From a virus, in IMG/VR virus record IMGVR_UViG_3300022751_000005, positions 1 to 43,605 of that record: a stretch of 43,605 bases of DNA; one strand, 5' to 3'. The stretch's first letter is position 1; each line of letters opens with the position of its first letter. Position numbers and translations under genes: made by a program. Positions 23,685 through 28,706 of this stretch are shown piece by piece. The notes beneath the pieces were generated by a model. It saw only the letters and a program-made list of their open reading frames with translations, was not told the origin of the DNA and searched no databases.

Positions 23685-24899
23685 ATGAAAAATCTAACTG
23701 TGTTTGGTTCTGAAATTATTGACCAAAAATGTATTACACAGATTGAAAATTGTATTGGAGAAAATGACATTGCAGTTTTAACATCCGATGCGCATTATGG
23801 TTACGGACACCCAATTGGAGGGGCAATCGCTTACAAAGACAAAGTTTCTTTGTCAGGTGTAGGTTTTGATATTGCTTGCGGAAACAAAGCTGTTAGAACC
23901 GATATTTTAGCTGACGATATTGACGTTGCAAAAGTGATGGACGAACTTTTCAAAAGGATTTCTTTTGGAGTTGGTCGCCATAATGACGAGCCTGTTGATC
24001 ATGAAGTTTTTGATAAAATTGCAAGCGCTGATTTCTTGCCGCAAAGAAAATTATTACAGTTGGCTAAAAATCAACTTGGAACAGTTGGAAGCGGAAACCA
24101 TTACGTTGATTTATTTCGGGGGAAAGATGGTTATTTGTGGATCGGAAACCATTTTGGCTCACGAGGTTTCGGTCATAAAACAGCAATGGGATTTATAGCG
24201 TTGTCTCAAGGATTAGGATTTGAAGATAAAGCAAACGAGGGCGGAATGGATAAGCCGCCTATTTTATTTGACACGAATACGAACTTAGGACAATCGTACT
24301 TGTCCGCAATGCATTTGGCCGGCGAATACGCTTATGCTGGTCGTGATATGGTAATTTCTAAAGTTCTTGAAATTTTAGACAATCCAACTGTAACTTTTCA
24401 AGTACATAATCATCACAATTTCGCTTGGAAAGAAAATCATTTCGGAAACGATTATTGGGTAGTTAGAAAAGGTTGTACTCCAGCTTTTCCAAATCAGTTA
24501 GGATTTATTGGCGCAAATATGCTCGATAAATCTGTAATAATTGAGGGTGTTGACACTGAGTTAGCGAAAACCACACTTTACTCAACGGTTCACGGCGCTG
24601 GTCGTGTAATGTCAAGAACAGAGGCGGCAGGAAAAAAGAAATGGATTGCTGATGAAAATGGGAAAAAACGACCAACAATCGTAGCAAAGGGAAAGGTTGA
24701 TTTTGATTTGGTTAAAGAAACCATGAAAACACACAAAATCGAACTACGTGGAGCTGGCGCAGATGAAGCGCCGCAATGCTATAAAAAGCTAAATGAAGTT
24801 TTAGGATTTATGGGAGATACTATCAAAGTGTTACATGAATTAGAACCAATTGGAGTAGCAATGGCAGGAAGTGATACATTCGACCCTTACAAAGATTAG
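23685..24899 (+). CDS. rtcB: RNA-splicing/repair ligase RtcB
   Basis: A 404-aa GTP/Mn-dependent RNA ligase that joins RNA 3'-phosphate or 2',3'-cyclic phosphate ends to 5'-OH ends. Family motifs present: SDAHYGYGHPIGGAIAY (34-50), the metal-binding GVGFDIACG (58-66, Asp62 and Cys65), GTVGSGNHYVDL (132-143), a His-rich HNHHNFAWKE (241-250), and the guanylylation HGAGR (303-307) followed by VMSR. No frameshift, normal length. Its substrates could be host-cleaved tRNAs or phage RNAs. It lies between RNA element A and an HNH gene. Function is confident, substrate unknown. Confidence 0.95.
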   Translation: MKNLTVFGSEIIDQKCITQIENCIGENDIAVLTSDAHYGYGHPIGGAIAYKDKVSLSGVGFDIACGNKAVRTDILADDIDVAKVMDELFKRISFGVGRHNDEPVDHEVFDKIASADFLPQRKLLQLAKNQLGTVGSGNHYVDLFRGKDGYLWIGNHFGSRGFGHKTAMGFIALSQGLGFEDKANEGGMDKPPILFDTNTNLGQSYLSAMHLAGEYAYAGRDMVISKVLEILDNPTVTFQVHNHHNFAWKENHFGNDYWVVRKGCTPAFPNQLGFIGANMLDKSVIIEGVDTELAKTTLYSTVHGAGRVMSRTEAAGKKKWIADENGKKRPTIVAKGKVDFDLVKETMKTHKIELRGAGADEAPQCYKKLNEVLGFMGDTIKVLHELEPIGVAMAGSDTFDPYKD

Positions 24900-24961: not shown

Positions 24962-25354
24962 ATGAAAAAACAGGATAGGCAATTAATTCACGATAAATTT
25001 GGCGGCAAATGTGCTTATTGCGGTACGGATCTTCTAAAAGGTTGGCACGTTGATGAAATTGAACCAGTTAGACGAAATTTTGTATATGATAAATCAAAAG
25101 GCAGTCATAAATCAGACGGCACTTGTATGCATCCTGAAAGGTTTCACATCGATAATCAAAATCCGTCTTGCGCAAGCTGTAATATAAATAAGCACTCAAT
25201 GTCCTTAGAAGAATTCAGGAAGCAGATTTCAGGATTTATGAACCACTTAAACAACATCAGTACTCAATATAAAATAGCAAAACGCTACGGTCTTGTTTCA
25301 GAAACGAATATTGAGGTTAAATTTTATTTTGAAACTTTAAATAACAACCAATGA
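24962..25354 (+). CDS. HNH endonuclease
   Basis: A 130-aa HNH nuclease. Zinc ligands CAYC (17-20) and CASC (70-73) frame the fold. His29 in WHVDEIEPV and Asn67/His78 in NQNPSCASCNINKHSM supply the catalytic signature, followed by SLEEFR as in many HNH proteins. The frame opens upstream at TTG 24941, inside the promoter, so ATG 24962 is preferred. It overlaps the metalloprotease gene by 4 bases. It may be a free-standing homing-type nuclease or serve in DNA processing. It is not next to the terminase genes, where packaging-linked HNH genes usually are. Confidence 0.85.
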   Translation: MKKQDRQLIHDKFGGKCAYCGTDLLKGWHVDEIEPVRRNFVYDKSKGSHKSDGTCMHPERFHIDNQNPSCASCNINKHSMSLEEFRKQISGFMNHLNNISTQYKIAKRYGLVSETNIEVKFYFETLNNNQ

Positions 25355-27129
25355 AAAAACTACTAATTATCCTACTTTTCCCAATCCTAACATTCGCCCA
25401 ATGGACAAAACAACAATCCAAAACAGGCGAGCCTATTCACAACTTGAACAAAAAAACGTTCACAAAACAACTGAACGCTAAAAAAGCGACCTTTCCAGAC
25501 GCCGATGGAAACTTATCTCAGTACGCACTTATCGAAGATTTTAATTTTGCTGATAAAAAAATAGCACAGAAATACGGACTAAGGAGTTTTCACGGTTTTG
25601 ATAAAGACGGACGGTCGATTAGCATAGCAGTTTCAAAAGAAGGTGTTGAGGCAACAATTACAGATTCGTTGCAAACTTTTGTACGTCCAACTGTTAATGG
25701 TTATAAAATAGGGCGTGTTGAAAGCAAAAAGGAGTTTTCCTGCGATGTTGACGAAAGGCAAGTTATATCTGATTTTACGGATAGAGCTAAAGCAAATCAA
25801 AAGGCGGCGGTTGTTAGAGGTGATATAACCGTTATCCGAATGGCAATAGCTATCAATTTCGAAGGTATGAAGCAAATCGGTTTAACACAGGCGAAAGGAC
25901 TTGCGTACTTGAACACATTAATGACTGCCGTAAACAAGCAATTAAGAGCCAATAACGGTGTAATTGGTCAATTGGTAGTCGGGAATGAAAAGCTGCTTTG
26001 TATTAACTCTGACGATCCATTTACGACACAAGACAAATGGACAGTACAAAGCCAGGTATTTATTGACAAAGTAATCGGTTCGGAAAATTACGACCTCGGA
26101 CATGTTCTGACTATTGGGGTTGGCGGGAATGCAGGCGGTATCGGAACGGTTACAAATCCAACTTTGAAAGGCTCGGCTTATTCAGCAACGCCAAATATGA
26201 CCGATCCGTATTTCTTTACCGATGTTGTTGTCCACGAAATTGGTCACCAATTAGGCGCAACCCACACGTTCAGTTACAAAGGTGTTGGGGTGGCGAATAT
26301 GGAATCTGGCAGCGGATGCACGGCTATGAGTTACGCAGGAATTGCCGGAGCAAATTATAATTTACAATCACATTCCTATCCGTTTTTTCACGGGCAATCT
26401 ATTAACCAGATTAACCAAACTTTGGGATTGAAAACCTCTTTAGGAAGCATCAATACAGGGAATCGCAACCCGATTATTACAAGCTCTATTGATAGAGTTG
26501 TTGAGTTCGACACGCCTTTTTCATTGTCGGCAATCGCAACTGATCCGGATGGTGACGAATTATATTATCAATGGGACGAAATCGATCCTACGGTTATCGC
26601 TTACACTATTCCAAAACCTACAAACTTTTCCGGCTCAATGTTCGCAAGCGTGTTGCCTTCAAAGCTGAATTACCGGAACTTTTATCTGCGTGACAAATGG
26701 AACGTTTACCCAACAATTTCACGGGTCTGTAATTTTATGCTTACAGTAACGGACAGCAAAGGCGGGCGGGCGCAACAAAAAGTAAAAGTTACATTTGTAC
26801 CGCCAGTTCCAAAAGTTAGCAATGCGCCTATTTTATCATACTTTCCCGGAACGCTTACGAAAACCAGCGTAAAACTGCAATGGAGTATCCCGGTTAATTT
26901 TTCAACCGTTGGATATAGTTTGTACAAAAATCCTGATGTTGATGATACCTCTTTAAAAGGCAATGAAAAAGAAAACTATCAGGCTAGTACTACAAACACA
27001 TTCATAACTGTAACATTCAATGCAGCCGACAAGCTCAAAGGTAGCGTTATATACGTTGTGAAAGGGAAAAATTCAGACGGTTGGCGAACTGAAAAAAGTA
27101 ATAGTTTGTTAGTTGATATTCCGAAATAA
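25351..27129 (+). CDS. Secreted zinc metalloprotease (metzincin, reprolysin-like)
   Basis: A 592-aa exported protease. Signal peptide at 1-17 (MKKLLIILLFPILTFAQ). The catalytic zinc site HEIGHQLGATH is at 295-305, with the Met-turn in GCTAMSYAG (Met326), which places it among metzincins of M12B type. Residues about 370-480 (RVVEFDTPFSLSAIATDPDG) look like a cadherin/PKD-like domain. Residues about 490-592 look like a fibronectin III domain (SNAPILSYFPGTLTKTSVKL). The secretion-type C-terminal sorting domain common in host relatives is not evident. Such a protein in a phage genome is unusual; it is either cargo or a virion or lysis-aiding enzyme. Confidence 0.88.
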   Translation: MKKLLIILLFPILTFAQWTKQQSKTGEPIHNLNKKTFTKQLNAKKATFPDADGNLSQYALIEDFNFADKKIAQKYGLRSFHGFDKDGRSISIAVSKEGVEATITDSLQTFVRPTVNGYKIGRVESKKEFSCDVDERQVISDFTDRAKANQKAAVVRGDITVIRMAIAINFEGMKQIGLTQAKGLAYLNTLMTAVNKQLRANNGVIGQLVVGNEKLLCINSDDPFTTQDKWTVQSQVFIDKVIGSENYDLGHVLTIGVGGNAGGIGTVTNPTLKGSAYSATPNMTDPYFFTDVVVHEIGHQLGATHTFSYKGVGVANMESGSGCTAMSYAGIAGANYNLQSHSYPFFHGQSINQINQTLGLKTSLGSINTGNRNPIITSSIDRVVEFDTPFSLSAIATDPDGDELYYQWDEIDPTVIAYTIPKPTNFSGSMFASVLPSKLNYRNFYLRDKWNVYPTISRVCNFMLTVTDSKGGRAQQKVKVTFVPPVPKVSNAPILSYFPGTLTKTSVKLQWSIPVNFSTVGYSLYKNPDVDDTSLKGNEKENYQASTTNTFITVTFNAADKLKGSVIYVVKGKNSDGWRTEKSNSLLVDIPK

Positions 27130-27256: not shown

Positions 27257-28192
27257 ATGTTTGAAAATGTAAAAACAATTCAAAGTTCAGATGAAAACGT
27301 AATGAAATTTGTTTTCGAAAAAAGTAACGCAGTAGCTGAAGCTGTATTGTACAAATACCCTACTTATGAGGATAGGACAGTGATTTGTTGTTCTACCCAA
27401 TCCGGTTGTCCTGTTGGTTGTAGATTTTGCGGGGCTGGGGATTATTTCGTACGAAGTTTAAAAGCCGAAGAAATTGTTTATCAGGTAGATCATTGCCTTT
27501 CGAGTCAAAATATTGACGCATCAAAAATTGAAAGGTTTCAAATTATGGTTATGTCTATGGGTGAACCTCTTTTAAATTTCAAGGAACTAGAAAAAGCTTT
27601 CGAAATACTTTATGAGAAGTACCCAAAAGCAAGACTACTTATTAGCTCGATTGGACCAAAAGTAAACTATGAGCCTATTATTGATATGTGCGAACGAATT
27701 CCTACTGTAGGACTGCAATTTTCAGTTCACGAAAGCACAGATGAAGCCAGGAACGAACTTATTCCTTTTGCGAATAAACTTACATTAAAAGAACTTTCAG
27801 AAGTGGGAGAGGTCTTTTTAGCCAGAACGGGGCGAAAACCTTTTTTCAATTATTGTGCTCACGAAAACAATTCAAGCGAATTAGACGCTTTAAGATTAGC
27901 CAACATTTTCAGTCCTGATGTTTTTGAGGCAACTATTTCAGTAGTCTGCGAAAGAGAGGAATCAATCGCTGCGGCAAACATCAGACAGAGAGAATTAGCG
28001 TCAAAATTTGAAGACCACTTAAAAAAGCGTTGGTTTTCTACAAGAATGTTCGACCCTGCTGGACAAGATGATATTGGCGGTGGTTGTGGTCAATTATGGT
28101 TCGTGCAAAATTGGATGAAACAAAATCCGGACATGGCTAAAAAATCAGTTGGTTTTGGAATGGAAGTAGTTCATGCGCCAACTTTAGATTAA
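27257..28192 (+). CDS. Radical-SAM RNA methyltransferase of the RlmN/Cfr family
   Basis: A 311-aa radical-SAM enzyme. The cluster motif CPVGCRFC (Cys51, 55, 58) is preceded at the RlmN-specific distance by Cys44 in CCSTQSGC. A second catalytic cysteine, Cys277, lies in GGGCGQL, matching the ACGQL motif of RlmN. MSMGEPLLN (near 100-108) is also diagnostic. RlmN and Cfr methylate C2 or C8 of adenosine in 23S rRNA, and RlmN also methylates tRNA. This protein is shorter than the cellular enzymes (about 350-385 aa), lacking most of the N-terminal accessory domain, so its RNA target may differ. It is preceded by RNA element B and followed by tRNA genes. Confidence 0.9.
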   Translation: MFENVKTIQSSDENVMKFVFEKSNAVAEAVLYKYPTYEDRTVICCSTQSGCPVGCRFCGAGDYFVRSLKAEEIVYQVDHCLSSQNIDASKIERFQIMVMSMGEPLLNFKELEKAFEILYEKYPKARLLISSIGPKVNYEPIIDMCERIPTVGLQFSVHESTDEARNELIPFANKLTLKELSEVGEVFLARTGRKPFFNYCAHENNSSELDALRLANIFSPDVFEATISVVCEREESIAAANIRQRELASKFEDHLKKRWFSTRMFDPAGQDDIGGGCGQLWFVQNWMKQNPDMAKKSVGFGMEVVHAPTLD

Positions 28193-28290: not shown

Positions 28291-28365
28291 AGCGGTGTAG
28301 AGCAGTTTGGTTAGCTCGGGTGGCTCATAACCATCAGGTCGCCGGTTCGAGTCCGGTTGCCGCAA
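28291..28365 (+). tRNA. tRNA with CAT anticodon (Met or Ile2), copy 1
   Basis: Cloverleaf of 75 nt: acceptor AGCGGTG/TGCCGCA (first pair A-A mismatched, then pairs including two G-U), D stem GAGC/GCTC, anticodon stem GGTGG/CCATC with loop CTCATAA, T stem GCCGG/CCGGT with loop TTCGAGT. CCA is not encoded. The anticodon CAT could mean elongator Met, initiator Met or, with lysidine, Ile. The stem lacks the three G-C pairs of initiator tRNA. The 3'-flanking AACTGCTC (28394-28401) is complementary to GAGCAGTT (28300-28307) in the D arm. Confidence 0.85.
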
Positions 28366-28410
28366 CGAAAATCCGACATGAGGCGAAGGCCGCAACTGCT
28401 CCGGTAACTA

Positions 28411-28446
28411 AAAATCCTTACTTTTAATTGAGTAAGGATTTTTTCA
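28411..28446 (+). terminator. Terminator between tRNA units
   Basis: AAAATCCTTAC (28411-28421)/GTAAGGATTTT (28432-28442), an 11-bp perfect stem, followed by T residues. Confidence 0.85.
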
Positions 28447-28447
28447 T

Positions 28448-28455
28448 TACATTTG
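28448..28455 (+). promoter_or_regulatory. TACATTTG promoter element of the tRNA-like RNA
   Basis: TAnnTTTG match directly after the terminator, two bases before the tRNA-like gene. Confidence 0.65.
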
Positions 28456-28457
28456 AA

Positions 28458-28568
28458 TTGTCGTTGGCGGAGTGGTAAACGCTATTCATAGTGAGAGTGA
28501 GCCGGACAAACAACCGGAATACCATAAGTTTCACGCTACACCCAAAGGTTCGATTCCTTTACGACAAT
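28458..28568 (+). tRNA. Atypical tRNA-like RNA with expanded central region (111 nt)
   Basis: Both ends are tRNA-like. The acceptor TTGTCGT (28458-28464) pairs perfectly with ACGACAA (28561-28567), and flanking bases can extend it. The D arm has GCG/CGC with a GAGTGGTAAA loop, and the T arm has AAAGG/CCTTT with loop TTCGATT. Between D and T arms there are about 61 nt instead of the usual 23-35. TATTC (28483-28487) can pair with GAATA, leaving a 29-nt loop, while TAGTGA (28488-28493) can pair with TCAC-g-CTA downstream, which together would form a pseudoknot. No 7-nt anticodon loop can be assigned with confidence. It has its own promoter and terminator. Confidence 0.6.
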
Positions 28569-28571
28569 TAA

Positions 28572-28599
28572 AAGCTACATTGTAAAGTGTGGCTTTTTT
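28572..28599 (+). terminator. Terminator of the tRNA-like RNA
   Basis: AAGCTACA (28572-28579)/TGTGGCTT (28588-28595), eight pairs with one G-U, followed by a T-run. Confidence 0.8.
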
Positions 28600-28602
28600 C
28601 AT

Positions 28603-28610
28603 TACATTTA
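28603..28610 (+). promoter_or_regulatory. TACATTTA promoter element of the third tRNA
   Basis: One base from TAnnTTTG, in the same TCATTACATTT context as the preceding unit, 6 bases before the tRNA. Confidence 0.55.
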
Positions 28611-28616
28611 CAAAAA

Positions 28617-28690
28617 GTTCGCATAACTCAGTCGGTCAGAGTTCCACACTCATAATGTGGCGGTCGGTGGTTCGATCCCATCTGCGGACA
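28617..28690 (+). tRNA. tRNA with CAT anticodon (Met or Ile2), copy 2
   Basis: Clean 74-nt cloverleaf: acceptor GTTCGCA/TGCGGAC, D stem ACTC/GAGT, anticodon stem CCACA/TGTGG with loop CTCATAA, variable CGGTC, T stem GGTGG/CCATC with loop TTCGATC, discriminator A. CCA is not encoded. It differs in sequence from the first CAT tRNA, so the two probably serve different codons (Met and lysidine-modified Ile ATA). Confidence 0.92.
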
Positions 28691-28706
28691 CTAAAACACT
28701 TTACTT

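Follow-up and report, generated by a model that had tools for sequence, protein, structure and literature searches.

A tRNA-like RNA with a 61-nt centre in a viral genome and a large phage family of putative tRNA mimics

A tRNA-like gene with an oversized centre

The window, that is, the complete stretch of 43,605 nucleotides analyzed here (IMG/VR record IMGVR_UViG_3300022751_000005), encodes a short tRNA-like RNA that is flanked by two tRNA-Met genes (28291-28366 and 28617-28691, identified with both ARAGORN and the Rfam tRNA model). The gene and its signals comprise the following elements, all on the plus strand.

28442..28454, +, left copy of the direct repeat TTTCATTACATTT, which bounds the RNA cassette (right copy at about 28598-28611)
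28448..28455, +, promoter -7 element TACATTTG of the TAnnTTTG type, 2 nt upstream of the first paired base of the RNA
28458-28568, +, tRNA-like RNA gene with a 7-bp acceptor, Leu-type D arm, T arm and 61-nt centre
28458..28464, +, 5' strand of the acceptor stem, TTGTCGT, pairing 7/7 with 28561-28567
28465..28482, +, positions 8-9 and D arm, TG-GCG-GAGTGGTAAA-CGC (TGGCGGAGTGGTAAACGC), tRNA-Leu-like, with G15
28483..28543, +, 61-nt centre replacing the anticodon arm and the variable arm; its final base, C48, matches G15
28544..28560, +, T arm AAAGG-TTCGATT-CCTTT, 5 bp with a canonical T loop
28561..28567, +, 3' strand of the acceptor stem, ACGACAA; T28568 is the discriminator position and CCA is not encoded
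28570..28599, +, intrinsic terminator AAAGCTACA...TGTGGCTTTTTT, a hairpin of -13.5 kcal/mol followed by a T run

The initial annotation of this locus, made from the sequence alone, described intact acceptor, D and T arms, a promoter and a terminator belonging to the gene itself, and an anticodon region of about twice the normal size, and all these features are borne out, with a fully paired acceptor and a distance of 61 nt between the D arm and the T arm as compared to about 22-40 nt in ordinary tRNAs. The TAnnTTTG element, which we take to be a promoter of the Bacteroidota/flavobacterial type, is located just upstream of the RNA, so that transcription would be expected to start at or beside the first base of the acceptor. 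ARAGORN in the default mode calls both neighboring tRNA-Met genes but not the RNA between them; the Rfam tRNA model (RF00005) does not report this RNA even at E values up to 10, and neither the tmRNA model nor any other Rfam family matches it. In the tRNA-Met gene at 28291-28366, the acceptor begins with an A-A mismatch at its top, which recalls the unpaired 1-72 position of initiator tRNAs. The genes located upstream of the RNA include those for an RtcB ligase, a reprolysin-like metallopeptidase and a radical SAM protein (23685-24899, 25351-27129 and 27257-28192).

The same RNA in the closest relatives

A search with a 30-base pattern taken from the 5' half of the RNA retrieved an exact copy in a second phage (IMGVR_UViG_3300023181_000044, hereafter L002). 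The two RNAs are identical over about 113 nt, as against 97% identity in the 200-base neighborhood and 96% in the neighboring gene; the flanks of the two copies differ at about 3% of the positions, and the promoter element is TATATTTG in L002, where it stands in a changed flank. At a divergence of 3.5%, a stretch of 113 nt should have accumulated about four changes, and the identity of the two copies hence suggests selection without proving it. A third relative (L004) contains no RNA at the same spot and only a single copy of the repeat TTTCATTACATTT, so that the cassette is able to come and go cleanly. By terminase, the nearest isolate is the Olleya phage Harreka_1 (77% identity), which places the window among phages of Flavobacteriaceae; our scanner detected no such RNA in this isolate.

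Apart from L002, no relatives of the window's own centre were found. Because this centre is known from a single identical copy, the evidence of compensatory changes described below comes from other members of the family.

Introns and RtcB

The centre had been proposed to be an intron-like insertion that might be removed by cutting and religation, with RtcB as the conceivable ligase, leaving a normal tRNA. When run with the intron option, ARAGORN indeed calls the RNA as a tRNA-Thr(agt) with a 22-nt intron, and the RtcB gene (1.9e-69) lies within the window, 4 kb upstream. The intron call, however, is not specific: ARAGORN with this option reports introns in 167 of 200 frames in which the centre was shuffled (0 of 200 are called without it), and among the relatives it yields scattered isotypes and scattered intron positions. 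An anticodon stem with U33 and an insertion can be found in 17% of 89 dereplicated relatives, compared to 19% in shuffled sequences. The proposed link to RtcB fares no better, given that phage-encoded RtcB was detected in none of 48 carrier contigs (0 of 50 in controls), is absent from the 43,349-base contig with the identical RNA and has no match in the two closest relatives. Both the intron reading, in view of the shuffled-centre null, and the RtcB link were accordingly rejected, and we consider a spliced tRNA precursor to be very improbable.

A large family of phage RNAs with a constant frame and variable centres

The family pattern, GGCGGARTGGTARRCGC-N{48,78}-GGTTCGANTCC, names only bases of the D and T arms and matches at least 119 viral contigs. 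The pattern does not require pairing of the acceptor, but among the distinct matches listed, 110 of 113 form at least six of the seven acceptor pairs; when strands are swapped among distinct acceptors, 21% pair at 6/7 or better. Examination of the loci with a dedicated scanner yielded at least 200 long-centre copies with at least 177 distinct centres and up to 6 copies per locus; at least 133 of the long-centre copies combine a strict Leu-type D arm with a centre of up to 110 nt. The window RNA, with its Leu-type D arm, T arm, paired acceptor and 61-nt centre, falls among these family members, for which the centre has to span 44 nt or more. The frame encountered most often is AGTCAGG TGGCGGAATGGTAGACGC (centre) ACAGGTTCGAATCCTGT CCTGACT AC. 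Across the family, the frame is near-constant and the centres vary. The possibility of a new tRNA-like class, raised in the initial annotation, is supported: a structured, probably pseudoknotted domain takes the place of the anticodon region, and this layout is repeated in far more than 100 phage loci.

Long-centre copies are present in about 3 of 120 control phage loci, which were selected for containing an ordinary tRNA-Met. Two contigs from bacterial genome assemblies match the strict frame, and none of 50,697 phage GenBank records contains both halves of the commonest, AGTCAGG frame. This rarity in bacterial assemblies and the lack of the commonest frame in GenBank phage records may explain why these RNAs have escaped notice.

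At the sequence level, the frame behaves as that of a tRNA. The family includes 45 distinct acceptors, 37 of them fully paired, and related centres occur in frames with different but still paired acceptors (L112/L084 and L019/L034). The bases at positions 15 and 48, which form the Levitt pair at the elbow of tRNAs, covary: A15 is accompanied by T48 in 140 of 148 cases and G15 by C48 in 8 of 9, the window included (Fisher p=2.5e-10 with 9 exceptions, an optimistic value because the sequences are partly related). The D arm is closest to that of tRNA-Leu, with a median edit distance to the family frame of 4 as against at least 6 for every other isotype. The discriminator is A73 in 135 of 165 members and is followed by C74 in 154 of 165; unlike the bulk of the family, the window RNA has U73, along with a different acceptor. 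It is therefore doubtful that LeuRS charges the window RNA, although such charging would suit the majority of the family.

In many carriers, the family member is accompanied by ordinary tRNA genes of numerous isotypes. The neighborhoods of the copies revealed no conserved partner gene: no family of neighboring genes extends beyond 13 of 114 loci, and the one that reaches this frequency resembles terminase, consistent with relatedness among the phages.

Structure of the centres

The initial annotation held that no standard anticodon loop could be fitted to the centre, and the same applies across the family. A canonical anticodon arm (5-bp stem, 7-nt loop, U33 and R37) can be drawn in 1.1% of 89 dereplicated centres, that is, at the chance level (0.4% in shuffles), compared to 66% of the ordinary tRNAs from the same loci; a search for relatives with a normal arm as their centre found none. 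Instead, the centres share an anchored helix. Exactly 2 nt separate its 3' end from the T stem (z=-12.2 at this offset, fading within a few nt). On inspection by eye, the variable arm of several phage tRNA-Leu genes has the end of its 3' strand at the same place.

Covariation was assessed in pairs of centres with an identity of at least 0.70; a threshold of at least 0.6 is uninformative, with unrelated centres being aligned. Among these close homologues, 74% of the changed cells in the anchored helix stay paired, compared to 36% in control column pairs, and double changes make up 31% of the changes compared to 2% in the control. In one cluster of six members, double changes occur in 3 of 8 pairs, a result reached by 2 of 500 shuffles.

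The pseudoknot is less firmly established than the anchored helix. The family shows an excess of crossing helices that would produce an H-type pseudoknot (Z=-3.7) but no clear excess of nested hairpins (Z=-1.5), and some centres fold without any pseudoknot. The motifs AGGT and AGGTGG are over-represented in the centres (10 occurrences of AGGTGG against 1.9 expected), with no fixed position.

In the window, the following elements of the centre can be delineated.

28483..28487, +, 5' strand of helix a, TATTC, pairing with GAATA at 28517-28521; crosses helix b to give a pseudoknot, weak here
28491..28501, +, 5' strand of helix b, GTGAGAGTGAG, pairing with 28530-28541 at -8.2 kcal/mol
28502..28517, +, small hairpin CCGG-ACAAACAA-CCGG, retained in the fold constrained to the tRNA frame
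28517..28521, +, 3' strand of helix a, GAATA, partner of TATTC at 28483-28487
28530..28541, +, 3' strand of helix b, TTCACGCTACAC, with exactly 2 nt between its end and the T stem

Helix b consists of about 9-10 pairs, interrupted by a bulge and a mismatch, and its 3' end at 28541 coincides with the family-wide offset, but the helix is not significant when the window sequence is taken alone (p=0.07). The two crossing helices drawn in the initial annotation thus have to be amended in part. The contact between TAGTGA and TCACgCTA stands but its register does not, given that this pairing amounts to -3.8 kcal/mol compared to -8.2 kcal/mol for 28491-28501 with 28530-28541; the idea of a crossing helix agrees with the enrichment in the family, but the specific TATTC/GAATA helix is weak by itself (-1.1 kcal/mol). 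In addition, the last base of the CCGG hairpin overlaps helix a, so the two compete for one base. Among pseudoknot-free folds, enforcing the tRNA frame produces a nested structure with helix b and the CCGG hairpin (-27.3 kcal/mol); the unconstrained fold, about 1 kcal/mol better at -28.5 kcal/mol, breaks the frame. The longest antisense match of the RNA to the phage's own genome is 12 nt, within the range of chance (shuffled mean 10.2, maximum 14).

Two hairpins with a 5-bp stem and a 7-nt loop, TATTC/GAGTG and TTCAT/GTGAG, can be drawn near positions 27-43 of the window RNA, one of them with U33 and the anticodon AGU. Together with the acceptance of several relatives by the Rfam tRNA model at 36-42 bits, these hairpins could be taken to indicate that the RNA is a functional, if highly atypical, class II tRNA whose non-canonical anticodon arm is used in decoding. 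Both hairpins, however, depend on G-U pairs and lack the usual spacing, such hairpins occur in the family at the frequency expected by chance, the window RNA itself remains below the reporting level of the Rfam model, and the carriers often have ordinary tRNAs for many isotypes alongside. Decoding by this RNA accordingly appears very unlikely.

Decayed genes can occur in phage tRNA arrays, and the rejection of the window RNA by default tRNA finders would also be compatible with a degenerate tRNA gene or with a chance joining of parts from two broken tRNAs. Such an origin is hard to reconcile with the intact frame equipped with its own promoter and terminator, with the unchanged RNA in a relative whose flanks differ, and with the 15-48 covariation and compensatory changes in the family. 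For the family as a whole, this explanation is effectively refuted, and for the window RNA, we regard it as very improbable.

Comparison with known RNAs

The closest match in architecture is class II tRNA, in particular tRNA-Leu (RF00005), with which the family shares the 7-bp acceptor, a D arm of the form GCG-GAAxGGTAGA-CGC, the T arm, the 15-48 pair, a helix ending 2 nt before the T stem, as the variable arm does in several phage tRNA-Leu genes, and, in most members, A73. Unlike tRNA-Leu, the family has no canonical anticodon arm, its centre spans 45-110 nt and is different in each copy, and the 5' strand of the helix resembling the variable arm lies upstream, often inside the would-be anticodon loop.

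In tmRNA, a tRNA-like end domain is joined to a pseudoknotted RNA in place of the anticodon stem, and this general layout is similar to that proposed here. In contrast to tmRNA (RF00023), the family RNA is about 110 nt long rather than about 350, has a true D stem and contains no identified tag reading frame; the tmRNA covariance model gives no hit on the family RNA at the gathering threshold.

YrlA is a bacterial Y RNA with a tRNA-like module that is bound by Ro60/Rsr; in some bacteria, its gene lies close to that of RtcB. For jumbo phages, Ro60-like TROVE proteins have been mentioned together with a tRNA-like partner (PMC7824862). The common feature is mimicry of tRNA by a non-decoding RNA; the difference is that the window encodes no Ro60/TROVE protein, TROVE is present in 3 of 35 records searched and no Y RNA family matches. 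For the window, a Ro60/YrlA reading was rejected on account of the missing Ro60/TROVE gene. Matches to the TROVE (Ro60) domain were observed in three large carrier phages (the records of L026, L075 and L083).

Two reports on tRNA-directed defenses, one dealing with the evasion of such defenses by phage tRNAs (PMC11555353) and the other with Septu/SegB (PMC13096335), describe a related situation, with phage genes of the tRNA type, several per genome, and a plausible arms race. The RNAs in these accounts are tRNAs proper, whereas the family RNA, on present evidence, has no decoding arm. Phages and pseudoknots both go unmentioned in a review of non-canonical tRNAs (PMC7609411). In the open-access literature, we found no description of such mimics. 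The family, which occurs in uncultivated phages, appears to represent tRNA mimics in which the decoding part is swapped for a different folded domain.

Possible functions

The scenario that we favor, with a probability of roughly 0.55, is that the window RNA belongs to a large phage family of non-decoding tRNA mimics in which the tRNA frame serves as a scaffold for an interchangeable domain that would attach to a factor of the host or of a rival, with counter-defense as the most likely purpose. Under this scenario, the retained leucine-type class II frame (acceptor, D and T arms, the elbow contacts and position 48) would fold as the top half of a tRNA and could allow the RNA to be matured and protected like a tRNA. 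The anticodon and variable arms are replaced by a domain of 45-110 nt. The 3' strand of this domain forms a helix at the position that the corresponding strand occupies in a variable arm, and its 5' strand is frequently located within the would-be anticodon loop, which would create an H-type pseudoknot. The domain is different from copy to copy and from phage to phage but is kept through compensatory changes among close relatives. Comparison across the family establishes the frame with its elbow pair, the anchored helix, the missing canonical anticodon arm and the presence of several different copies in one genome; maturation as a tRNA, the role as a scaffold and counter-defense go beyond it. 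The RNA would not decode; rather, the exchanged domain would bind a host or rival factor, the most likely target being translation- or tRNA-directed immunity.

It is the variability of the centres that points to binding of a host factor. Given that the centres differ between phages and between copies whereas the chassis stays the same, a partner in an arms race, such as a host defense system, is the most natural guess. The existence of tRNA-directed defenses and of tRNA-based evasion (PMC13096335, PMC11555353) makes a counter-defense setting plausible. The mimic or decoy raised in the initial annotation forms part of this scenario, but an anticodon nuclease is an unlikely target for such a decoy, given that the RNA presents no anticodon loop.

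A different form of decoy would act through the frame, by occupying proteins that bind the elbow, the acceptor or the class II variable region, such as a defense nuclease, an aminoacyl-tRNA synthetase (for example, LeuRS) or EF-Tu, with the centre merely blocking entry into the ribosome. It is the frame and not the centre that is near-constant, the D arm is Leu-like and the prevalence of A73 and C74 is compatible with such an activity; moreover, bacterial defenses are known to cleave tRNAs, as in the case of Septu acting on the variable loop of tRNA-Tyr (PMC13096335), and phage tRNAs are able to counter retrons (PMC11555353). A passive centre, however, need not keep compensatory changes among relatives, nor need it differ so strongly among the copies in one genome, and the window RNA departs from the family in having U73 and a different acceptor. 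We consider this decoy unlikely.

A bolder extension of the favored scenario, with an exchanged domain on a tRNA scaffold, can be put forward tentatively. The family might constitute modular phage RNA effectors, in which one tRNA chassis, recognized and matured by the host, would carry many unrelated domains, each blocking a defense or translation factor, an RNA counterpart of the islands of anti-defense proteins. Provided that the mimics are produced and are stable, RNAs with the shape of a tRNA but unable to translate are encoded by many phages, and current annotation misses or mislabels them. Under the same proviso, the family would supply natural RNA domains already fused to a tRNA scaffold, and it would offer a testable way of studying how phages employ RNA, rather than protein, against translation-directed immunity.

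Additional observations on related loci

Several loci contain further RNAs or variant tRNA-like genes. In L058, a family member (312-408) is followed, after about 75 nt, by a phage tmRNA gene (485-847; RF00023, 97.7 bits). A conserved hairpin of the type TTGACAnCTTGGAAAGACAAG is located directly 5' of the mimics in L121, L122, L126 and L128 and may belong to a further RNA. At about 14000-14129 of L128, the family frame recurs with an insert of about 45 nt that is flanked by repeated ATGGT and is placed in the D loop rather than in the anticodon region. Finally, the isolated Bacteroides phage BS-TP3 (PQ571276.1) contains an unannotated tRNA-like gene with a 61-nt centre (L147, 1418-1527), which has a D arm of the class I type, scores 53.9 bits with the Rfam tRNA model and is available in a culturable system.
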